64,000 nucleotides of DNA from Polyangiaceae bacterium (GCA_020846005.1 JADLEQ010000055.1:62001-126000); one strand, 5' to 3'. Positions 13,063-40,113 are shown, numbered from the stretch's first letter. Made by a program: numbers and translations. The notes: generated by a model not told the origin, from the letters alone.

Positions 13063-13992
13063 CTAGGCGAGCAGCGGCGCCGTGAACCGGGCGAGCCGCG
13101 CGTCGATCTCCGCCCACGCCGCGACGCGATACGTCCGCTCCTGGGCGAGGCCGAGGGTGGCCGCGCGCGCGCCGCCGACCCAGATCTCGATCGCGGGCGG
13201 GAGCTTAGAGCCGAGCCAGGCGATGCTCGCGGCGACCGTCTCGCCGTCGGCGCTCGCCGAGACCGACAGCCCGACCACGTCGACGCCGAGGGCGCGAGCC
13301 GCGTCGGCGATCTGATCGAGCGGAGCGTCCACCCCGAGCAGGCGCGGCTCGGCGCCGCGGAGCGCCAGGTAGAGGGCGGCCATCTCCAGCCCCAGGCCGT
13401 GGCTCTCGTGCGGCAGGGTGGTGAGCAGCACGACCGGGCGCCCGCGAGACTCGTAGGCGCTGAGCAGCAGCCGGAGCTGGGTCGAGAGCGTCTCGGTGAG
13501 GAGGTGTTCGTGCCGAACCTGGAGCTCACCGGCGGCCCAGCGCTCCCCCACCTGCGTGACCAGCGGTGCCGCGACCTCCATGAGGAACGCGCGGGGGCCG
13601 AGCGTGGCGACGGCCTGCCGGAGCAGCAGCTGGAGCGCTGTCACGTCGTCGTCACGGAGCGCGTCGATCATGCCCGCGAGCGTCGGGCTCTGATCGGTCG
13701 CCAGGTTGGTCGGTGCGTGGGCAGCCTCGAGCAGCGCGTGCCGGAGATCGTCGGGCGAGCGATGGATGACCTCTCCGGCGCGGTAGCCGGCCTTCAGCGC
13801 CCGCGAGATCAGCACCAGCCGCTCCACCTCGTCGGCTGAGTAGGCGCGGACGCCGTTCGGGTTCCGGACGGGCTTCGGGAAGCCGTAGCGGCGCTCCCAC
13901 ATCCGGAGGGTGTCGGCCGAGAGCCCGGTGAGCCGCGCCGTCACGCGGATCGAGTAGCCGTGCTCCTCGCTGGCGAGTCCGATGTCGTCCAC
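13063..13992 (-). CDS. MerR-family regulator with B12-binding domain, CarH/LitR type
   Basis: Light-sensing repressor candidate of 309 residues. Residues 12-80 form the MerR winged helix (VTARLTGLSADTLRMWERRY). The middle has the four-helix cobalamin cap with W152 followed nine residues later by Glu162-His163, which is the Wx9EH motif of adenosylcobalamin photoreceptors. The Rossmann part has ESHGLG (196-201), the ExHxxG motif whose His198 would be the lower cobalt ligand. These residues separate true CarH-type sensors from light-independent relatives. It starts with GTG; TAGACT six bases upstream suggests a leaderless mRNA. TGTCCTAGAC at 14000-14009 overlaps that hexamer, as expected for autorepression. 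The SDR gene ends 19 bases upstream. Confidence 0.92.
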   Translation of the reverse strand: MDDIGLASEEHGYSIRVTARLTGLSADTLRMWERRYGFPKPVRNPNGVRAYSADEVERLVLISRALKAGYRAGEVIHRSPDDLRHALLEAAHAPTNLATDQSPTLAGMIDALRDDDVTALQLLLRQAVATLGPRAFLMEVAAPLVTQVGERWAAGELQVRHEHLLTETLSTQLRLLLSAYESRGRPVVLLTTLPHESHGLGLEMAALYLALRGAEPRLLGVDAPLDQIADAARALGVDVVGLSVSASADGETVAASIAWLGSKLPPAIEIWVGGARAATLGLAQERTYRVAAWAEIDARLARFTAPLLA

Positions 13993-23630: not shown

Positions 23631-24122
23631 TCAGCTCCGGAACGCCGCCTTCACCTTCGCGTCGAGCAGCGTGACGAGCGCCCAGATCCCGATCGGAGTG
23701 TTGATCAGGCAACAGATCGAGCAGGGGAGCGAGAAGAGCACCGCGGCCACCGTCGCCAGGGTGTGGCTCTGCAGCTGCTTCATCTTGAGCGCGCCGAAGA
23801 TGACGAAGCCGTTGAAGAGGAGGCTGATGAAGCCGCTGATCAGGCCGACGGTGCCGGAGAAGAGCGCCTGCATCCCCTGGTCGCCACCGGAGGCGGCGCC
23901 GACGCCGGCACCGAGGAGGTTCATGGCGATCCCGAAGAGATTGACGAGGATCGCGAGCCCACTCAGGATCAGCATGAGCATCGCCGGGAGGGCCACCTTC
24001 CCGGTCGCGTCCCCGGGCGGCGCCGCGCCGGGCGCGGGGCCCGGCATCGGGCCAGGGAACTGTGCGGGGCCAGGCGCCGGCGGATAGCCTTGCCCGTACG
24101 GACCAGGGGGCGGGTTGTACAT
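23631..24122 (-). CDS. Small membrane protein with Pro/Gly-rich N terminus
   Basis: A 163-residue protein. The first 42 residues are almost all Pro, Gly, Ala and Tyr (PPGPYGQGYPPAPGP), followed by about four hydrophobic segments (near 43-72, 85-112 and 120-152). A CCxI pair (SICCLINTPIGIW) in the last helix recalls small DUF4190/DUF4339-like membrane proteins with a Pro-rich cytoplasmic tail. The function is unknown. GGAGGT lies 11 bases before the ATG. Confidence 0.72.
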   Translation of the reverse strand: MYNPPPGPYGQGYPPAPGPAQFPGPMPGPAPGAAPPGDATGKVALPAMLMLILSGLAILVNLFGIAMNLLGAGVGAASGGDQGMQALFSGTVGLISGFISLLFNGFVIFGALKMKQLQSHTLATVAAVLFSLPCSICCLINTPIGIWALVTLLDAKVKAAFRS

Positions 24123-24350: not shown

Positions 24351-24707
24351 TCAGCCCCGATAGTAGAGCTGCTCCACGCAGGCGTCGATCAGGTAGAAGC
24401 CCGGAGCCGCCCACTCGTTGCACGAGAGCTGTTCGACCCACGGGAGGCACTCGTCGTACAGCTGCTCCCGATCGCGGATGCCGACCACCGCGTTGCACGT
24501 CCCCATGTCGGCCTCGACCAGGCCGTCGCACTCCGCCACCGTCCCGCCGCACTCGGCGCACTTCTGGCTCCACGCCGCGCTGACGTCCTCGCAGACCTCC
24601 GGGGGAGGAGTGTCGCCTACCAAGGGAGGCGCCCGACGGTCCGAGTCCGAGGCGGAGCAGCCCGCCAAGCCCATCGCCAAGAGCATCGAGATGTAGGCAG
24701 GTCCCAT
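24351..24707 (-). CDS. Small Cys-rich lipoprotein
   Basis: A 118-residue lipoprotein with the lipobox LAGC (Cys17). The mature part has eight cysteines spaced as four likely pairs (VCEDV ... KCAECGG ... ECDG ... GTCNA ... ECLPW ... SCNEW ... DACVEQ), giving a compact helical disulfide-rich fold. No family is recognised. It lies downstream of the multihaem-like lipoprotein gene on the same strand (161 bases), so it may or may not be part of that unit. GAGGGA lies upstream of the ATG. Confidence 0.68.
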   Translation of the reverse strand: MGPAYISMLLAMGLAGCSASDSDRRAPPLVGDTPPPEVCEDVSAAWSQKCAECGGTVAECDGLVEADMGTCNAVVGIRDREQLYDECLPWVEQLSCNEWAAPGFYLIDACVEQLYYRG

Positions 24708-24868: not shown

Positions 24869-27800
24869 TCAATCGAACGGGGGGCCGCGCTCGGCACCGC
24901 CGCCGATCAGGCCGGGGTACTCGGCCGTCCGCGCGATCACCTCGGAAGCCTGCGTGAGGATGTCCGGGTTCACGACGACGTGCTTCTCCTGGCCGGAGAT
25001 CGACCCGTGACAGCCGGCGCACATGCCGTCGAAGAGCTGCCGGCGGAACCCCTGCTTCAGCTCCTCGCCGGGGTAGAACTGGAGCTCCTCCCGGAGGAAA
25101 TGCCGGCGGGGGCCGGTGTCGTCCGCGAACTTGGTGTCGAGCGCCATGACGAGGGGCATGCCACCCGGGACCTCGGCGATCCCGCTACCATCCTGGAAGA
25201 GCTGGATCACGCCCAGGGACCGCCGCCGGGCGTAGACCTCGCCGTACTGATCCGTCGTCACGAACGATCCCCCCTGGGCGAAGCTCGTGACCCCCGGAGC
25301 CGGCGGCAGGCTCTCCCAGAACTCTGGCGACGACGCATCGATCTGCCGAGGCGACCGCGTATTCTGGAAGAGGAGCCCCATCAGCATGGGGAGATCGACG
25401 TACCGGATGCGCGCGATGGGCTTGCGGTCCGGCGCCGTCGAGATGTTGGTGGCGACGTTCGCCTCGTGCTTCGACGAGTCGAACACCCCGCGGTTCATCC
25501 GCGGGTACACGGCGACCGGCCACAGCTCGTCGCTCGGGCCCTCGACCAGCGGTGTCCGCCGACCGGTGACGGGGTCGACGACATGGATGTCGAAGTTCCC
25601 CGAGAAGGCGGAGAGCTCGACCACGTTCGGCGCGTAGCTGACCACGAGGCGGCCGTCCGGCAGCGGGTAGGGGCTGCGGTACGCGCCCTGCGTCCCCCCG
25701 AGCCGGCCGGTCGACGCCGGATCGATGACCCGCAGGCTCGACTGATAGAACCCAGGGGCCGGCCGGTCGATCGCGCTCGGATCGAGCGGGTAGTCGGCCG
25801 GATCGGCGCTCTTCTGGTCGACGCCGATGCTGCGGTTGATGACGACGAGCGCGCCCGCCTGGTTCGCCGTTCCACGGTCACTCGCGATGGCGACGAGGTT
25901 CTTGTCGGCGGTCTCGACGAACTCCGTGAACTGCAGGTACCCCGCCGTCGCGCGCTGGCCGAAGAGCGGGTGGTAGTCACCGCCGTCGATGTTGATGCGT
26001 CGCCCCGCGAGCTGATAGAAGCCAGGCGCTCGCTTCTCGGTAGAGAAGATCACGCGGCCGTCGCTCTTGAACATCGGGTAGAGTTCCTGGTTCAAGAGGA
26101 ACGTGAGCTGGCGGACGTGGCCGTTCTCGGCGATGTAGAGGTTCGAGTTGAGCTTCGACGGGTCGGCCGGCGTCCGCTGCGGGCCCTGGTAGGAGAAGGC
26201 GCCCACGTTCATCACGTTGCCGCGCGTCGACGTGAAGACGACGCGGCCGTCCGGCGAGAACGCAGGATCGAAGTTGTGCACGAGCTCGCCGTTCGACGGG
26301 ACGGGGTTGCCCTCGTCGTCGACCGGCGGGGCGTCGATCGTCGGCTCGACGCCGCAGCCCGCTGCGTCCAGGACGTAGACGCGCCACGGCTGGTCGGCGG
26401 CCGTCCTCGCGCTGAACCCGAGGCGGGAGCCGTCCCACGCGACGGCGGGGCGCCGCACGTCGGCGGTCGCCGGGTCGAGCCCGCAGCCGGCCAGCAGGCT
26501 CTCCTCGGCGCCGAGCGTGACCACGCCCGCGGCGTCCACCGTCGCCGGCGCCCGGATCAGATCCGCGCCCGGCGCATACGACTCGAAATCCTGGGCGGCG
26601 TTGCGCCCGGGCGCGGGCGGGCGCCGGACGAAGACGAGGTGGCTCAGCCCCGCCGCCGGCATCCGCGCGGCGCGCTCCTTCGCGATCCAGGTGACGAGCA
26701 CGCAGTACTCGCTGACCTCGTCGAGCGGGGCGGTCTCCGCGGCGACCGGATCGCACGCGGTGGGATCGCCGCCGTACGCGAGGAGCGGCCCGCCGCGGTG
26801 CAGGATCCCGCCCGCGTCCGGCGGGAGGTTCTTCCGGACGATCCGGCTCGCGTTCGGGTCGGTCGTCTCGAGCGCGATCTGCTCGAGCGACAGGTGGTAG
26901 TTGGTGCGCGAGGCGGCGAGGCCGAAATGCCCCCCGCTGCCGCCGCGCAGGCGGTACTCGTGGAAGCTCAGCCCCGAGTGGCACGCCAGCGTCATGCAGC
27001 CGCGACGCGCGAGCATCGGCTGGACCCGCTTCGCGAAGAATGGGAAGCCCTCCTCCGCGGGGACGTTCGTCGGCGGCCCCTTCGCCGCGGCCCAGTCGCG
27101 GAGCGCCAGCCAGTCCGGATCGCTGGTCGACGGGAAGAAGACGCCCCCCTCGTGGTAGGCGCCGCCGCTCGCCGGGTCGAGCCCGCTCCGCAGCAGCTCG
27201 CTCGCGGTCGTGTCGGCGTTCACGAAATCGCTCGCGGCGAAGTAGTTCCACCGCACCTGCTCGGGCGTGCTCCCGCAGGTGAGATAGAGCGAGTTCGCCC
27301 GCGCGCCGTGGCAGTTGCCCGCCGCGCAGCTCTTGACGAGGACGGGCCCGGCCCGGTCGCGGAACGCGGCGAAGTCGGCGCCCGCCGGATCCGCCGAGGG
27401 GTCGAAGAGGGCGTCCGTGCCGAGCGTCTCCGAGCAAGGGCGGGAGGCGAGCTTCGGCGGTGGCGCCGCGGCGTTGTTCTCGGCCGCGCCCCGCTCGATC
27501 CAGCGCTGAAGCGTCGCGAGGGACACGCTGCCGAAGTCGAGGAGCGAGCCTCCGGCGTGCACGATGTTGCTGCGCGTGACCACGACCTCGTTGTCGTACG
27601 TCACGAGCCGGAGATCGTACTCGGGCACGACCTCCAGCAGGAGCGCCGGCATGCCGTAGGGGCCGTAGTTCTGGAAGAGGTCGCGCCGGAGCGAGAGGTC
27701 CCCGTAGCTCGCGACGCTCAGGTTGCCGAGCGCGTTGCCCCTCGAGTCGGCGACGTGGCAGCCGCTCGTCGTCGGGCTCGAGGCGCACGACTCCTGGAGG

Positions 27801-27931
27801 ATCGGCGCGATGTTGCGCTCGTAGTAGGTCGTCTCCGCGGGCCGCTCCTCGCGGGTGCACCCAGGCACCCCGCCGACGACCGCGGCCCCCACGACACCGG
27901 CGACGAGAGCAGCTCGAACCAAGCGCGCCAT
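24869..27931 (-). CDS. Large exported lipoprotein with PD40-like propeller and several C-x-CH motifs
   Basis: Predicted periplasmic or surface cytochrome-like lipoprotein of 1020 residues. The signal peptide ends at VPGC. Four Cys...Cys-His motifs are seen: an 8-residue spacing near the N terminus (CASSPTTSGCH), two with 4-residue spacing (CAAGNCH, CMTLACH) and one canonical CAGCH near the C terminus. CX4CH is a known but uncommon haem-binding spacing; the CX8CH one may not bind haem. The middle has PD40/TolB-like blades (FDPAFSPDGRVVFTSTRG, PMFKSDGRVIFST). The ATG at 27931 is preferred because TAGAAT lies seven bases before it and overlaps the alternative ATG at 27940. It follows the HEAT-repeat gene by 79 bases in a three-gene unit. 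Confidence 0.82.
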   Translation of the reverse strand: MARLVRAALVAGVVGAAVVGGVPGCTREERPAETTYYERNIAPILQESCASSPTTSGCHVADSRGNALGNLSVASYGDLSLRRDLFQNYGPYGMPALLLEVVPEYDLRLVTYDNEVVVTRSNIVHAGGSLLDFGSVSLATLQRWIERGAAENNAAAPPPKLASRPCSETLGTDALFDPSADPAGADFAAFRDRAGPVLVKSCAAGNCHGARANSLYLTCGSTPEQVRWNYFAASDFVNADTTASELLRSGLDPASGGAYHEGGVFFPSTSDPDWLALRDWAAAKGPPTNVPAEEGFPFFAKRVQPMLARRGCMTLACHSGLSFHEYRLRGGSGGHFGLAASRTNYHLSLEQIALETTDPNASRIVRKNLPPDAGGILHRGGPLLAYGGDPTACDPVAAETAPLDEVSEYCVLVTWIAKERAARMPAAGLSHLVFVRRPPAPGRNAAQDFESYAPGADLIRAPATVDAAGVVTLGAEESLLAGCGLDPATADVRRPAVAWDGSRLGFSARTAADQPWRVYVLDAAGCGVEPTIDAPPVDDEGNPVPSNGELVHNFDPAFSPDGRVVFTSTRGNVMNVGAFSYQGPQRTPADPSKLNSNLYIAENGHVRQLTFLLNQELYPMFKSDGRVIFSTEKRAPGFYQLAGRRINIDGGDYHPLFGQRATAGYLQFTEFVETADKNLVAIASDRGTANQAGALVVINRSIGVDQKSADPADYPLDPSAIDRPAPGFYQSSLRVIDPASTGRLGGTQGAYRSPYPLPDGRLVVSYAPNVVELSAFSGNFDIHVVDPVTGRRTPLVEGPSDELWPVAVYPRMNRGVFDSSKHEANVATNISTAPDRKPIARIRYVDLPMLMGLLFQNTRSPRQIDASSPEFWESLPPAPGVTSFAQGGSFVTTDQYGEVYARRRSLGVIQLFQDGSGIAEVPGGMPLVMALDTKFADDTGPRRHFLREELQFYPGEELKQGFRRQLFDGMCAGCHGSISGQEKHVVVNPDILTQASEVIARTAEYPGLIGGGAERGPPFD

Positions 27932-27938
27932 GGGGGGC

Positions 27939-27944
27939 ATTCTA
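27939..27944 (-). promoter_or_regulatory. -10 element TAGAAT of a probable internal leaderless promoter
   Basis: TAGAAT (5 of 6 to the sigma70 consensus) ends seven bases before the ATG at 27931, so the last gene of the operon may also be transcribed alone. Confidence 0.45.
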
Positions 27945-28010
27945 CCGCGCGCGCGGGGGCTGTCGACGCGGCTCGGTGCCCGATCCGTGCGACCGCTCAC
28001 GCCACCCTCG

Positions 28011-28955
28011 TCAGAGGCGACGGAGCGCCACCCGTGCCGCGTCGCGCACGAAGCCGTCGGTGTCCGCCTGCGCGGCCTCGACCGCCGCGCGCGCTGCCGG
28101 ATCGGCGATCTGCCCGAGGGCGTAGACCGCCGCGACCCTCACGCTCGCCTCCGGCTCGGCCGCCGGCGACGTGAGCGCCACCAGCCCGGCGACCGAATCG
28201 GACGCGCGCATCGCGCCCAGCACCTGCACGGCCCGGCGACGCACGACGGCGGAGTCGTCCGAGAGCCGGCCGGCGACCGCGGCCACGTCGACGAAGCCGT
28301 TCACGCGGAGCGTCGCGTCCACCGCGGCGAAGCGCACGGCGGAGTCGGCGTCCGCCATCGCCACCGCCAGCTCGCCCGCCGCTCCCTGGCTGTTCATCCG
28401 CTCGAGCCCCCGGACGGCGGCCTCGCGCACCTTCGCAGAAGGATCGGTGCGGATCGCCGCCGAGAGGGGCGCCACGCCGGCGTGCGTGAGGAACTCGCCG
28501 AGCGCGTTCGCCGCGTAGGCGCGCGTCGCCTCGGGCTGGGTGCGATCCTCGAGCGCGGAGACCACCCGCGAGTACACCTGGCCCTTGCCGAACACCCCGA
28601 AGATCCGCCGGCGCAGCCACCACGCGCTGATCTCCCGGACGCGCGAGTCGCCGTTCCAGAGGAGCGCCTCCACGACGGGGATGCACTCCAGGCACTCCAC
28701 CTTCTCGCCCCGCTCGAGGACGCGCCACACCTCCGTCGGCGCGACGTTACCAGCCCGAAGCTTGAGGATCGTCTCCGGCGTGCTGACGCCCTCGAGCGAC
28801 TCGGGCGAGAGCTGCCGGTAGACGCTGGCGCGACCACTGTAACGATCGGGCTCGGCCGCGCTCGCGGAGCCGACGAGCGCCGAGCTGACCACGAGGCCCG
28901 CGAGCGCGGAGAACCTGCCGAACGAATGGAGCTTCATGAGGGTCATCTTTCGCAT
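28011..28955 (-). CDS. Exported HEAT-repeat protein
   Basis: A 314-residue periplasmic protein. A Sec signal peptide ends near Ala33 (SALVGSASAAEPD). About seven HEAT-like helical repeats follow, for example AVVRRRAVQVLGAMRASDS and ASVRVAAVYALGQIADPAA. A CLEC pair (about residues 88-91) lies before the repeats and could form a disulfide or bind metal. HEAT solenoids mediate protein contacts; here the likely partners are the two large cytochrome-like lipoproteins encoded on either side. The start lies nine bases after the stop of the upstream gene, which points to one mRNA. Confidence 0.85.
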   Translation of the reverse strand: MRKMTLMKLHSFGRFSALAGLVVSSALVGSASAAEPDRYSGRASVYRQLSPESLEGVSTPETILKLRAGNVAPTEVWRVLERGEKVECLECIPVVEALLWNGDSRVREISAWWLRRRIFGVFGKGQVYSRVVSALEDRTQPEATRAYAANALGEFLTHAGVAPLSAAIRTDPSAKVREAAVRGLERMNSQGAAGELAVAMADADSAVRFAAVDATLRVNGFVDVAAVAGRLSDDSAVVRRRAVQVLGAMRASDSVAGLVALTSPAAEPEASVRVAAVYALGQIADPAARAAVEAAQADTDGFVRDAARVALRRL

Positions 28956-28964
28956 CCTTCCGAG

Positions 28965-31328
28965 TCAGTAGTTCTCACCGCTGCCGGCGACCGGATCCGT
29001 CTCGTTGGGGACGAACGCGCTGTTCTGCCGCGCGTAGAACTGCCCACCCAGGTCGATCACCCGGATCAGCATCACCCGCTCGTCCCGCGTGAGCGTGATG
29101 CCCACGTCGTCGGGGTGCATCGTGCGGACGCCGCCCGCGACGCCCTCGACGGAGAACGGCTCGCCGAGCGGCCACGCCGTGCGGTTCGGGTCCAGAGACG
29201 AGGTGACGTTGAGCTTCTCGATGAGCACGCTGCCGCGCGCATCGCTCGGGACCGCCCACGGGGGCGGGATCTCGCCCTGCACCGTCCCGCCCCGGCCGAT
29301 CTCCATCTGGATGGCCGCGGGGTAGAACAGGGAGACGTACGACGCGGGCCACTCCGCGACGCGGCGATCGTACTCGACCGTGACGCCCCGCGAGGTGAGG
29401 TCCAGGCGCGGCACGCGGAACTCCTCGCTCGTCCCCAGCGTCCCGTTCGCCATCGTCAGCGTGTAGAACGTCTGCGGACCGCTGCCGTTCGTCGTCTCGT
29501 TGTGGCAGGAGACACACTTGGCGTCGAAGAGCTTCTGCACCTCGTTCGGGTTGGCCGGGTCGTTGGCGTAGGCCCAAGGGTACTCGATCCGCTCGGCGAT
29601 CGGCTGCATCATCGGCTGCGGCCCCTTGCCGCCCGCGATCGTCAGCGCCTGCGCGCCGGGGATGATCTGCCCCGTGCGGTTCTCGTGGCAGCCGCCGCAC
29701 ACGCGGTCCTCACCCGGCATCGCCTGGATCCACAGCGTCTGGCTGCGGATCGCGAGATCGAATTCGTCCACCGGCTGCAGGTGGACGGGGACGTACGGTG
29801 GCACCGCCGCCAGCCACGAGCCGTCCGCGTAGACGTCGGCCTCGCCGATCAGCGCCGCGCCCTCGGCCATCGTGAGGCCGAACATGGTCGTCCCCGGCGA
29901 GCCCTCGCTGGAGAAGCCCTCGATGATGCGGACCTTCTTCGCCTGCGCGAGCGCCTGATCGAGCGGGGTGCCGTCGAACTGGGCGCCGCTGACCGTCTCG
30001 CCGTGCTTGGCGGTCAGGCTGGTCTGCCGCACGTCGATCGAGCCAATCCGCGCCGGCACCGTCGCGTCGGTCGTGGTGATGATGGACGCGATGATGGGCG
30101 GCGCCTGCCGGGCGACGACGGCGCGCCCGTAGACCTCCCAGCTGTCCTCGTAGTTCACGACGAGCTGGTTCTGCCGAGACTCGGGATCGTAGAGGTAGAG
30201 GCCGAAGTCCGGCGGCGTCAGGGCCAGCTCGTTCAGCTCGTTCACGAAATCGTGGCCCGACCACGAGACGAGGATGCGACCGTCCGGCAGCGAGACGGGG
30301 TACTGGTAGCGCCCGACGGGCGACGGCTCCTCCTCACGCGGGACCGCAGGCGTCAGCAGCTCGTACTGAGCGGCCTCCTCGTCGAAGCGCTCGGGCTGGC
30401 CCTCGGCGCGGGCGTCGATCCGGAGGAGCGAGCCGGCCTGGATGGTGTTCTGCCGCGAGGTCGTGATCGCGAGGAACACGTTCGGCGTGTTCGTCTCGGT
30501 GACCTGCACGAGGGAATTGCCCGGCTTGTCGTGTTGGCCCGCGATGGCGACCATCTGCGTACAGTCGGGGTTCATCGCGAAGAGCTTCACGTCGTTGACG
30601 TTCTCGAGGTGCTCCCAGCGAGAAAAGCCGACGCGACCGTCGGCCATGCCGAAGAGCTGCACGGTGTGCGAGAGGTTCTGCGAGCAGAGGTGGCGATCCG
30701 CGTCGCCGCCCGCCATGGTCACCGTCCCGATCTGGGTGACGCTCCGCGGGTGGTTGTACTCGTCCGCGCGCGTCCCCATCTCCGTGTAGCCCTGGTTGGT
30801 GACGAACGCGACCTTGTCCCCCGCGACGTAGACGGGGAAGAGATCATCGTACGGACCGAACGTGAGCTGGTGGAGCTCCCGGGGCCCGGAGCCCTCAAGC
30901 GACGCCCAGTAGATGTGGTAGTGGTCGTCGGCGCCCAGCTTCATCGAGAAGACGACCCGCGTCGCGTCGAACGAGAGGTCCAGGCTCGAGACGTCGGCGC
31001 GATCGTGGCCCGCGATGAGGTTCTCGACCTTGCCGGTCGCGAGGTTCCTCAGCTCGACCCGCGCGCCCGGGACGTAGCGGTCGTAGTCGACGACCTGGCC
31101 CATGCCGCCCGCCACGTCGATGCTGACGCCCTCGGGCCCGACGACGGTGTGCTGCCGGACGACGTAGACGATCCGCTCGACCGACTTGCCGAGCGCGCCA
31201 TCGTCGGTCGGCTCGTCCTTCGCGGAGCAGCTCGTCGCGACGCCGCCCCACCAGGCGAGCAGGAGCGGGGACGCGAGCAGGCCGAGGTGCGTCAGGCGCC
31301 GGCGCCGAGCGGGATCGAGACGGGTCAT
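28965..31328 (-). CDS. HzsA-related lipoprotein with propeller and two CXXCH haem sites
   Basis: A 787-residue exported protein. An Arg-rich N terminus and hydrophobic segment end at ATSC, giving a lipid anchor. Residues 50-400 hold PD40/WD40-like blades (DLSFDATRVVFSM, YDDLFPVYVAGDKVAFVTN). The C-terminal part has two canonical haem motifs, VCGGCHENRTG and CVSCHNETTN, in the arrangement of the hydrazine-synthase-alpha-like family, which is widespread outside anammox bacteria. A role in hydrazine chemistry is not implied. GGAGGC lies eight bases before the ATG, and a sigma54-type promoter lies upstream. It is the first gene of the unit that continues with the HEAT and second cytochrome-like genes. 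Confidence 0.85.
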   Translation of the reverse strand: MTRLDPARRRRLTHLGLLASPLLLAWWGGVATSCSAKDEPTDDGALGKSVERIVYVVRQHTVVGPEGVSIDVAGGMGQVVDYDRYVPGARVELRNLATGKVENLIAGHDRADVSSLDLSFDATRVVFSMKLGADDHYHIYWASLEGSGPRELHQLTFGPYDDLFPVYVAGDKVAFVTNQGYTEMGTRADEYNHPRSVTQIGTVTMAGGDADRHLCSQNLSHTVQLFGMADGRVGFSRWEHLENVNDVKLFAMNPDCTQMVAIAGQHDKPGNSLVQVTETNTPNVFLAITTSRQNTIQAGSLLRIDARAEGQPERFDEEAAQYELLTPAVPREEEPSPVGRYQYPVSLPDGRILVSWSGHDFVNELNELALTPPDFGLYLYDPESRQNQLVVNYEDSWEVYGRAVVARQAPPIIASIITTTDATVPARIGSIDVRQTSLTAKHGETVSGAQFDGTPLDQALAQAKKVRIIEGFSSEGSPGTTMFGLTMAEGAALIGEADVYADGSWLAAVPPYVPVHLQPVDEFDLAIRSQTLWIQAMPGEDRVCGGCHENRTGQIIPGAQALTIAGGKGPQPMMQPIAERIEYPWAYANDPANPNEVQKLFDAKCVSCHNETTNGSGPQTFYTLTMANGTLGTSEEFRVPRLDLTSRGVTVEYDRRVAEWPASYVSLFYPAAIQMEIGRGGTVQGEIPPPWAVPSDARGSVLIEKLNVTSSLDPNRTAWPLGEPFSVEGVAGGVRTMHPDDVGITLTRDERVMLIRVIDLGGQFYARQNSAFVPNETDPVAGSGENY

Positions 31329-31383
31329 GGGTGCCTCCGGGCGGCGCCCCCGCGGTGCGGGCGGGCGAGCGCCAGCACCACCG

Positions 31384-31401
31384 TTGCAGGGGGCGTGCCA
31401 G
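31384..31401 (-). promoter_or_regulatory. Sigma54-type promoter of the cytochrome-like operon
   Basis: CTGGCACGCCCCCTGCAA on the minus strand fits the -24/-12 pattern TGGCACG-N4-TTGCA with one mismatch. The GG and GC are separated by exactly 10 bases. The expected start of transcription is about 45 bases before the ATG at 31328. I found no second site of this quality in the window. Confidence 0.7.
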
Positions 31402-37199: not shown

Positions 37200-39035
37200 T
37201 CAACGCCCGGCGATCCCGGCCGCGGTGTCCCAGATCGCCAGGCCGACTCCCACGAGCGACTCGCCAGCGACGAGACCGGCAGCGATCACGATCAGCAGCC
37301 GCTTCGTCCAGCCCGGCCTCCACCGGCCGAGGAGCGCCGCGAGGACGGCGCCGAGGAACATCGAGAGGCTGTTCCACGCAGGGACCACCATCGCGAGCCC
37401 GATGCTCCCGGGGCTCGGAACCCACCCCGCGACCCTCGGCGGCAGCACCTTCTCGAGGACGGCGAGCACGACGCCCAGCACGCCCGCGATCGCCATCGCG
37501 TCGAGCGCCATGGGGGGCATCGCCGAGAAGCCCTCGCGGAAGACCTCGGCCACCGCCTTCCACGCCGCCACGGCCGGCGCGGGCCACTCGGCGGTGAGCA
37601 GCATGCCCTTCGGATCGGGCACGAGCACCAGGTAGCCGACACATCCTGCGACGGCCCCCGCGAGCACGCCGGCCGTCTGGGACACCGCCTGCTGGCGCGG
37701 GCTCGCGCCGATGAGCGCGCCCGTCTTCAGATCGTGGAGGAGATCCCCACACTGGCTCGCCGCCCCTCCCGTGACGTTGGCCGCCATGAGGTTCCCGGCC
37801 ACGTCGCCGGGTGACACCGCGCCAAACACGAGCTGCGTGACCTTCCCCATGGGGCCCACGGGCGTGATGCCCGTCTCGCCCGACACGCGCCCGGCGACCA
37901 CCGCGAGGAGGAACGTGAAGAGGACGCTGCCCGCCGCGAGCCACCAAGAGATCCCGAAGAACGCGACCTGCGGCACGGTCGCCAGGATGAGGACGCACAC
38001 CACCGCCGCGAGGAACACCTTGCGCGGGACGTCGTCGGCGTCCTCGGGGCTGGCGCGAGCCTCTCCGCTGCCCACGAGCGCGCGCCGGATGCTGCGCCAG
38101 CCGAACGCCACGCTGGTGAGCGACGCGGTCACCATCATGCTGACGCCGGGCCAGAGCATCCACTTGTTGATCGCGCCGAACCACGGGGTGAGCGGGTTCG
38201 GTGGCCCGGGCTGCGCCCAGCCCGCGTCGAGGGCGAGCGGGGCGAGCCACACCCACGACGCGACGGCGCCTACGAGCAGCGAGAACCCGGCGCGCAGGCC
38301 GATGATCGCTCCAATCCCGAGCATGAGCACGGAGGGGTCAACCGAGATCCCCAGGTTGGCGAAGGTGTAGGTCGTGGCGCCCGACTTCGCGGCGACGCCT
38401 CCCGGGAGCCCCCACGGGTGCAGCTTCGCCAAGTGCGCCGCGAGCTTGGTCGCGGCCCCCGCCGCCGCGCCGAGCCCGAGCGCCGTCACCCGCGACATCG
38501 CCTCGCGACCCTGCGCGTACATCTGCTTGATCGTCTCGGCGCTCGCCACCCCGCCCGGGAACGGCAGGCGATCGACGACGATCATCTGGCGGCGGAGGCC
38601 GATCGCGACGACGACGCCGACCAGGCTGACGGCCGCCGTCCACACCACGAGCTCGAGGTAGCCGAGCGTCTTCCCGGTGAGGATCGTCCACGCCGGGATC
38701 GGAGCCACCAGCCCCGCCGAGCTGATCGAGGCCGCAGCCGAGGCCGCCGTCTGGTTGATGTTGTTCTCCAGCATGCCGAAGGGCCGCTTCGAGGTGAGGC
38801 GGAACCAGCCGAACGCGAGGAGCATCGCCGTGATGCTCATGTTGAACCCCCAACCGATCTTGAGGCCCGCGTAGATGTTGCTGAGCGAGAGCACGCCGCC
38901 GAGCACACAACCTGCGGCGACGGCACGGAAGGTGAGCTGGGGCGAGGTGCGATCTAGCGCCGGGTAGTCCCCGGCCGGCCGCGCCTCGGCGGGAGGCGCG
39001 TCATCGGGGGTGGCGTCGGGCTCACGCTCGTTCAT
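37200..39035 (-). CDS. OPT-family oligopeptide/metal-chelate transporter
   Basis: Inner-membrane transporter of 611 residues with about 14 hydrophobic segments. Family signatures are present: LSLSNIYAGLKIGWGFNMSI near the first helix, ENNINQTAASAAASISSAGLV, FPGGVASAETI, GITPVGPMGKVTQLVFG and ANVTGGAASQCGDLLHDLKTG. Bacterial members of this OPT subgroup take up peptides or metal complexes; which applies here is unknown. The ATG giving MNEREPD is preferred because TACTCC lies eight bases upstream. It is convergent with the ExbD-like gene, with four bases between the stops. Confidence 0.92.
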   Translation of the reverse strand: MNEREPDATPDDAPPAEARPAGDYPALDRTSPQLTFRAVAAGCVLGGVLSLSNIYAGLKIGWGFNMSITAMLLAFGWFRLTSKRPFGMLENNINQTAASAAASISSAGLVAPIPAWTILTGKTLGYLELVVWTAAVSLVGVVVAIGLRRQMIVVDRLPFPGGVASAETIKQMYAQGREAMSRVTALGLGAAAGAATKLAAHLAKLHPWGLPGGVAAKSGATTYTFANLGISVDPSVLMLGIGAIIGLRAGFSLLVGAVASWVWLAPLALDAGWAQPGPPNPLTPWFGAINKWMLWPGVSMMVTASLTSVAFGWRSIRRALVGSGEARASPEDADDVPRKVFLAAVVCVLILATVPQVAFFGISWWLAAGSVLFTFLLAVVAGRVSGETGITPVGPMGKVTQLVFGAVSPGDVAGNLMAANVTGGAASQCGDLLHDLKTGALIGASPRQQAVSQTAGVLAGAVAGCVGYLVLVPDPKGMLLTAEWPAPAVAAWKAVAEVFREGFSAMPPMALDAMAIAGVLGVVLAVLEKVLPPRVAGWVPSPGSIGLAMVVPAWNSLSMFLGAVLAALLGRWRPGWTKRLLIVIAAGLVAGESLVGVGLAIWDTAAGIAGR

Positions 39036-39135
39036 CGCGCGTGGGAGTACCACGAACCGTCGACGCCCCGAAGCGCCGCAGGCCCGCCGGCGCACGGCCG
39101 GTGCACGCCGCGCGAGGGACGCGGGGCCGCCCCGC

Positions 39136-40113
39136 TCAGAGCCAATGCCGCCAGAGGAAGAACCCGACCATCGTCACGGGCACGAGCAGGCACGCCGCGA
39201 GCATCACGCCGAGCCAGACCCCGGAGTCGAAGGGGAGGCCTGCGAAGTTCTGGCCGAAGAAGCCTGTCACGAACGTGAGCGGGAGGAAGATCGCGCTCAA
39301 GATCGTGAGGCGCTTCATGATCTCGTTCGTGCGGTTCGAAACCGCCGTGAGGTACGCGTCGAGCGCGTCGTTGAGCTGCGTGCGGCTCGACTCAAGCGCC
39401 TCCCCCATGCGGACCAGATGATCGTGGACATCGCGGAAGTAGGGCCGGGTGCGGGGCGCGATCTGCGGCTCCTCCCGCCGCTCGAGCGCAGCGAAGACAT
39501 CGCGCTGCGGCGCCACGATCCGGCGGACGGCGATCAGCATGCGCTTGAGCTCGAGGATGCGGGACAGGTCCACCGGACGCGGTCGGTGGAGCACCACGTC
39601 CTCCACCTCCTCGAGCCGCGCGGCCAAGCGTTCGAGGACAGGGAACACGGCGTCCACGCAGCCGGCCGCCACCAGGTAGTAGAGGAAGTCGACCCCTCGC
39701 CGTCCCAGCGCGGGCTCAGAAGCGACCCGGCCCCACGCGCTCTCGAGCGCCTCGACGCGCTCCACGTGCACCGTGATGAGCCACGTGTCGCCGAGGAACG
39801 CGTGCACCTCCAGCGCCTCGGCGCGCTCCACGCCGGCTGCGTCGGGCACGAGGCGGACGGCGTGGGTCACCAGGAAGAGGTGCTCGTCGTATTCCTCGAG
39901 CTTGGGCCGCTGGTCGAAGCTGATGCAGTCCTCGATGGCGAGCGGGTGGAGGCCGAAGCGCTGGCGGAGGACCTCGAGGAGGTCACGCGCGTCGGGCCCC
40001 TCGCCCTCGACGTCGATCCATCGCCGCGTGCCGTCCGGCGGAGGCGCGAGGCGCGCTCGATCGTCGTGCGGCACGGGCGACCCGTCCGCGGGGAGATCGA
40101 GCACCCGGAGCAC
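39136..40113 (-). CDS. corA: CorA-family divalent-cation channel with a GQN filter
   Basis: Membrane channel of 325 residues. A long cytoplasmic alpha/beta domain (about 1-255) and two C-terminal helices match CorA. The conserved loop normally reads GMN; here it is GQN (287-289, in FFGQNF), so the selectivity may differ. The residues just before (TGFFGQNFAGLPF) and the basic tail otherwise fit the family. It starts with GTG; TAGGCT six bases upstream suggests a leaderless mRNA. It is the only gene of its transcription unit. Confidence 0.92.
   Translation of the reverse strand: MLRVLDLPADGSPVPHDDRARLAPPPDGTRRWIDVEGEGPDARDLLEVLRQRFGLHPLAIEDCISFDQRPKLEEYDEHLFLVTHAVRLVPDAAGVERAEALEVHAFLGDTWLITVHVERVEALESAWGRVASEPALGRRGVDFLYYLVAAGCVDAVFPVLERLAARLEEVEDVVLHRPRPVDLSRILELKRMLIAVRRIVAPQRDVFAALERREEPQIAPRTRPYFRDVHDHLVRMGEALESSRTQLNDALDAYLTAVSNRTNEIMKRLTILSAIFLPLTFVTGFFGQNFAGLPFDSGVWLGVMLAACLLVPVTMVGFFLWRHWL

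Follow-up and report, generated by a model that had tools for sequence, protein, structure and literature searches.

A conserved gene trio in the Myxococcota encodes two putative lipoproteins related to hydrazine synthase alpha and a HEAT-repeat protein

The locus, its promoter and its products

The window analysed here is a stretch of 64,000 nucleotides from a Polyangiaceae bacterium (GCA_020846005.1, JADLEQ010000055.1:62001-126000). Three genes lie in a row on its minus strand (24869-31328): gene A, followed by the gene of a HEAT protein (H) and by gene B. A preliminary description of the row as an HzsA-related lipoprotein, an exported HEAT protein and a 1020-residue lipoprotein was correct for all three genes and their coordinates. 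The gap between A and the HEAT gene is 9 nt and that between the HEAT gene and B is 10 or 79 nt. The features of the locus are listed below; residue numbers of B count from the GTG at 28000 (minus 23 for the 1020-aa form).

31385..31400, minus strand: sigma54-type -24/-12 element TGGCACGCCCCCTGCA, 56 nt before the ATG of gene A; best-scoring site of the window
28965..31328, minus strand: gene A, putative HzsA-like lipoprotein, 787 aa (PF18582, E 2.9e-13; profile against 5c2v_A, E 1.7e-16)
29685..29699, minus strand: CXXCH of A, C544-H548 (C544/C547/H548), equivalent of the haem alphaI site; invariant in 64/64 orthologues
29502..29516, minus strand: CXXCH of A, C605-H609 (C605/C608/H609), equivalent of the haem alphaII site; invariant in 64/64 orthologues
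29115..29117, minus strand: His738 of A, aligned with HzsA His772, the distal ligand of haem alphaII (PMC12758564); invariant in 63/63
28011..28955, minus strand: gene H, exported HEAT-repeat protein, 314 aa (HEAT_2, E 2.7e-21)
28683..28694, minus strand: CXXC of H, C88-C91, in the module LExGExxECxxC...REIxAWWLRRR; invariant in 59/59 orthologues
24869..27931, minus strand: gene B, putative lipoprotein, 1020 aa from the ATG at 27931 (1043 aa if the GTG at 28000 is the start)
27755..27787, minus strand: module 1 of B, C72-X8-C81-H82, possible distal ligand His148 (27557-27559); invariant in 58/58
27308..27328, minus strand: module 2 of B, C225-X4-C230-H231, possible distal ligand His283 (27152-27154); invariant in 58/58
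26978..26998, minus strand: module 3 of B, C335-X4-C340-H341, possible distal ligand His401 (26798-26800); invariant in 58/58
25007..25021, minus strand: CXXCH of B, C994-H998 (C994/C997/H998), at the end of the HZS_alpha-type middle domain; invariant in 55/55

The near-consensus -24/-12 promoter that had been noted 56 bases before the first gene was recovered at 31400-31385. It is of the TGG-N9-TGCW type, has a set place before the operon and is the sole site of that score on both strands of the 64 kb. A scoring of 60 upstream regions with one matrix identified a -24/-12 site before A in 56 of the 60 loci, whereas the same score was reached by 7% of random stretches drawn from the same loci. 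The median distance from the site to the estimated A start was 34.5 nt among these regions, a figure that is approximate because the start codons in those loci were estimated by rule. The source genome encodes rpoN. Control of the operon by sigma54 is supported by these sequence data.

Protein A consists of a beta-propeller, an HZS_alpha middle domain and a C-terminal haem domain, and carries a lipobox (Cys34) and the motifs CGGCH and CVSCH. The lipobox and the two CXXCH motifs contain the only cysteines that are conserved among the orthologues, and PF18582 was found in 27/27 of them. Protein B consists of three tandem N-terminal haem-like modules, an HzsA-type propeller and an HZS_alpha-type middle domain (PF18582 in 14/27 orthologues). 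Both proteins were modelled with AlphaFold2 from 27-sequence alignments as single, haem-free chains (mean pLDDT 78 for A and 82 for B). The best match of the A model is 5c2v_A (Z 32.0, 3.3 A, 585 residues; model residues 47-781 against chain residues 53-802). The B profile matches the same chain (E 1.2e-8), which is also the best match of the B model (Z 31.7, 3.7 A, 465 residues), but the structure matches of B are dominated by propellers and this known-fold test barely covers the N-terminal modules. TolB propellers follow next for both proteins at Z 25-27; the propeller part alone is therefore unspecific, whereas the match of A to HzsA over three domains is specific. The preliminary description had called B cytochrome-like and had missed its relation to HzsA, which the profile, the model and the HZS_alpha domain of B all show. 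The fold and the HZS_alpha matches of B imply two HzsA-type subunits and not one. Overall, the resemblance of A and B to hydrazine synthase alpha in predicted architecture stands.

The HEAT protein carries a signal peptide, and complete orthologues also start with a hydrophobic N-terminal signal. C88 and C91 are its only cysteines and lie inside the best-conserved, N-terminal stretch of the protein. The NCBIfam HEAT names CpcE, NblB and PRK13800 were rejected for H since all of them scored far below their cut-offs and the matches are explained by shared HEAT repeats.

Conservation of the trio and its genomic context

Protein searches identified A in 28 and B in 28 of 59 relatives, largely on the same contigs and with room for one HEAT gene between them. 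A contig search with the A sequence alone gave no matches, and the loci were found when the A alignment was used as the query. The named records with the trio system belong to the Polyangiaceae, Sandaracinaceae, Labilithrix, Kofleriaceae and Nannocystineae, all within the Myxococcota. Wherever a Myxococcota locus is long enough to reveal the gene order, this order is A-H-B, with the exception of two genomes (G014 and G054) in which B lies elsewhere, and it holds down to 30-35% identity (Kofleriaceae and Nannocystineae).

A survey of 183 genomes of the order recovered A in 73, the HEAT CXXC module in 71, B in 72 and all three in 70, so that the conservation in other genomes on which the preliminary description had staked its reading was borne out. 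The departures from a full trio consist of two genomes in which A is cut by a contig end (G039 and G128), one in which the contig stops after the HEAT gene (G036) and one genome of 80% completeness that contains a fragment of B (G002). With the CXXC-module profile, a single gene was detected in each of 71 genomes out of the 73 with A, and the 110 genomes that lack A gave no match. Phylum-wide, A was present at E <= 1e-60 in 24 out of 282 genomes, all of one class. The pairwise distances of A, H and B correlate (r 0.95, 0.90 and 0.87), a correlation that common descent alone would also yield. The matches from Planctomycetota and others (L109-L136) contain A-like proteins and neither B nor a separate HEAT gene of the trio type. 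At the level of sequence, the conservation of the trio, its order, its Cys/His motifs and its promoter across the Myxococcota is more than chance.

No flanking gene is conserved with the trio across the loci, and the neighbours are lineage-specific. Together with the almost perfect co-occurrence of A, HEAT and B, this agrees with the earlier view of a self-contained set. The accompanying claim that no transporter or cytochrome maturation gene lies nearby calls for two corrections: genes of an OPT-family transporter (37203-39095, minus strand) and a CorA-like transporter (39139-40113, minus strand) are located 6-9 kb upstream, and the lack of a maturation gene near the trio has little meaning, since the source genome carries genes for cytochrome c assembly proteins (PF01578) at another place.

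Several lineage-specific neighbours were recorded. Nine loci (L034, L036, L037, L039, L072-L075 and L077) have a divergent gene upstream of A, whose L037 copy encodes DsbD_TM and thioredoxin domains, and many of these DsbD-type loci have OmpA-family and TPR protein genes downstream of B. In L018-L023, L025, L045, L059, L061, L063, L071 and L106, the gene upstream of A is a PRA-CH/PRA-PH gene on the opposite strand (both domains were seen in the L021 copy), and most of those loci have a response-regulator gene behind it. In the window, B is directly followed by a gene of a 118-aa Cys-containing probable lipoprotein (24354-24707, minus strand), and a gene of a 163-aa probable membrane protein is also located downstream (23634-24122, minus strand); neither has a Pfam match. 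A MerR-type regulator with B12-binding domains, possibly light-responsive and of the CarH type, is encoded at 13066-13992 (minus strand).

A link of the trio to denitrification or ammonification was considered and rejected. Within the 183 genomes of the order, nosZ was present in 32% of the genomes with A and 29% of those without (p 0.74), and nrfA in 23% and 18%, respectively (p 0.45). Only nirK displayed a weak association (22% with A and 8% without, p 0.014, uncorrected for kinship and for the testing of three genes), and the source genome has no nirK match. As the trio lacks a conserved neighbour and is not strongly associated with nosZ, nrfA or nirK, no substrate is suggested.

Haem-type motifs and possible roles of the three proteins

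The two proteins contain six haem-type motifs in all: two CXXCH motifs in A, and one CXXCH and three C-Xn-CH motifs in B. The three CXXCH motifs, each with its His ligand, are of the form expected of c-type cytochromes, and all haem-type Cys and His residues of A and B are invariant across 55-64 distinct orthologues. The N-terminal modules of B are mutually homologous according to hhalign (98% for modules 2 and 3, 92% for 1 and 2, 51% for 1 and 3). The Cys-Cys spacing of module 1 is X8 in 29 orthologues and X6 in another 29, and never X7. H148, H283 and H401 each sit in a repeated H-x-G-G downstream of the C-Xn-CH of their module, and modules 1-3 may each bind a bis-His haem. Six further cysteines of B are invariant (C189, C242, C416, C433, C506 and C549) and probably form disulphides.

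Additional B-like genes were observed in several genomes. The source genome has a second, distant one (L052, G000:C3:10872-13241, minus strand) with 32% identity to B residues 212-1024, so that the match starts past module 1. Extra copies besides the trio B were found in L046 (G022:C1), L049 (G032:C296), L050 (G043:C69) and L051 (G044:C20). In G014, two B copies (L047 and L048) lie away from A and HEAT, and the A-HEAT pair has no adjoining B.

The promoter, the gene order, the co-occurrence, the HzsA fold of A and B and the haem-type motifs were all established by computation. The explanation favoured here, with modest confidence, is that A, HEAT and B constitute one inducible, envelope-anchored redox unit with six haems that is related to hydrazine synthase but is not hydrazine synthase. 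A and B would both be exported, acylated and loaded with covalent haem, six in all. The three N-terminal modules of B would conduct electrons to a periplasmic carrier like a wire, and the substrate-handling core would consist of the propellers together with the haems of the middle domains, at the alphaI positions of both lipoproteins. The HEAT protein would be a dedicated partner that either joins A and B or brings both to the haem-loaded state. The complex might then act on a small substrate, in the manner of the alpha half of a multihaem oxidoreductase of the hydrazine-synthase type. Counting against this explanation, C-X6/8-CH did not turn up as a haem attachment spacing in the literature searched, the gene associations suggest no substrate, and the key active-site residues of hydrazine synthase (Tyr591 and Cys303) are missing.

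The part played by the HEAT protein can be read in two ways. The suggestion of the preliminary description that a HEAT solenoid holds the set together is plausible, as two Planctomycetota records (L116 and L122) contain HEAT repeats fused to HzsA-like domains, which favours a physical association of the HEAT protein with an HzsA-like partner. However, the best-conserved part of H is the N-terminal CXXC module, and a thiol or maturation role, which the preliminary description had left out of account, is therefore a live alternative to a scaffold. As a dedicated maturation factor instead of a structural subunit, H would keep the cysteines of the atypical sites in B reduced through its CXXC and hold the apocytochrome with its solenoid, combining the jobs of CcmH (CXXC) and CcmI/NrfG (alpha-solenoid). 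The invariance of both cysteines, the confinement of the module to genomes with A and the DsbD-type thiol donor gene that divergently adjoins A in nine loci are consistent with such a factor, and in other systems dedicated lyase or chaperone proteins are required at atypical haem sites (PMC6976685, PMC3601427). Yet family scans of H gave no Pfam or NCBIfam match to CcmH, CcmI or NrfG at E <= 1, the operon contains no dedicated CcmF-type lyase, DsbD does not adjoin the trio in most loci, the HEAT-HzsA-like fusion in L122 has no CXXC module, and the CXXC may also be a structural disulphide. A maturation role of this kind is considered rather unlikely overall. It is doubtful, too, that the trio forms a multihaem enzyme whose complex contains two subunits of the hydrazine-synthase-alpha type and in which the CXXC HEAT solenoid serves as a haem-loading helper for the C-X4-CH and C-X6/8-CH motifs of B.

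Alternatively, the C-Xn-CH modules of B might be haem-free with their cysteines in disulphides, which would make B a largely structural or substrate-binding propeller with one CXXCH haem and leave A as the only full cytochrome. The non-canonical spacing (variable between X6 and X8 in module 1) and the further invariant, probably disulphide-bonded cysteines point in this direction, and none of the Pfam cytochrome models recognises modules 1-3. On the other hand, the second Cys of each module is followed by an invariant His and later by the invariant His of H-x-G-G, the pattern to be expected of a bis-His haem; the C-X4-CH spacing of modules 2 and 3 has been counted as a haem motif in published cytochrome searches (PMC10734462); and a disulphide alone does not explain the invariance of the CH pair. 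Haem-free modules are judged improbable. An envelope sensor or substrate-capture device with TolB-like propellers, in which haem detects NO, O2 or CO as a ligand and which is neither an enzyme nor an electron conduit, would fit the propeller alignments with TolB (Z 25-27) and the response function that inducible sigma54 control suggests, but is highly unlikely given the match of A to HzsA across all three domains and the lack of a conserved signalling partner adjoining the trio.

Relation to hydrazine synthase and other known systems

The HzsA family is already known, and the seemingly new part is the unit of two HzsA-type proteins and a HEAT protein with atypical haem-type motifs. In the literature searched, with most subscription papers outside reach, no description of the A-HEAT-B trio was found, nor a tested function for any HzsA relative outside anammox. 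HzsA-like proteins are widespread, and a compact, strictly conserved trio with a switchable promoter makes their function testable, the more so as trio homologues occur in genera with cultured myxobacteria, for example Sandaracinus. The C-X6/8-CH motifs of B with their matching distal His would extend the known modes of haem attachment, and a new type of partner for atypical haem sites may be represented by the HEAT-CXXC protein.

In HzsA, Tyr591 holds the iron of haem alphaI, His587 and Cys303 hold a zinc, and His772 is distal to haem alphaII (PMC12758564). Protein A shares with HzsA (5c2v chain A) the three-domain fold of propeller, HZS_alpha middle domain with the alphaI CXXCH and C-terminal haem domain, as well as the distal haem-alphaII histidine (His738, equivalent to His772), and B shares the propeller and the middle domain with CXXCH. 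In contrast to HzsA, A and B are putative lipoproteins, and B has three added N-terminal modules but no alphaII domain. Based on an ungapped alignment from the CXXCH, Tyr591 is replaced by Thr552 in A and Ser590 by an invariant Arg551; the zinc ligand Cys303 has no conserved Cys counterpart in A and is absent from the Scalinduaceae too. The genes beside A are those of HEAT and of B, the latter again HzsA-like, and not those of HzsB and HzsC, and the B profile matched HzsA and gave no match to the HzsB and HzsC chains at E <= 1. Both A (40.2 bits) and B (27.5 bits) score below the 800-bit cut-off of the NCBIfam equivalog NF052339. On account of Tyr591, Cys303 and this cut-off, hydrazine synthase proper was rejected as an identity for the trio.

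Resemblances to other systems concern parts of the trio. By analogy only, H combines a CXXC thiol pair with a periplasmic alpha-helical solenoid as CcmH and CcmI/NrfG of System I do (PMC3601427), but the solenoid there consists of TPR and in H of HEAT repeats, and no sequence similarity was found. The two Planctomycetota fusions unite HEAT repeats with an HzsA-like propeller and middle domain in one protein, whereas the same profiles find no B and no separate HEAT gene in these records, and the L122 protein lacks the CXXC module. The hydrazine synthase-like clusters of clades I-IV in the Planctomycetota and Desulfobacterota likewise place alpha beside partner genes in non-anammox organisms with key active-site residues missing (PMC12758564, whose main text contains no word starting with "Myxococc"). 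They pair alpha with a fused beta-gamma, often together with an FG-GAP protein, whereas HEAT and B accompany A in the trio of the Myxococcota. For the alpha homologues of clade I, the absence of a His772 equivalent has been reported (PMC12758564); A keeps this residue and therefore differs from them, and the retained distal histidine of haem alphaII bears on the evolution of hydrazine synthase.
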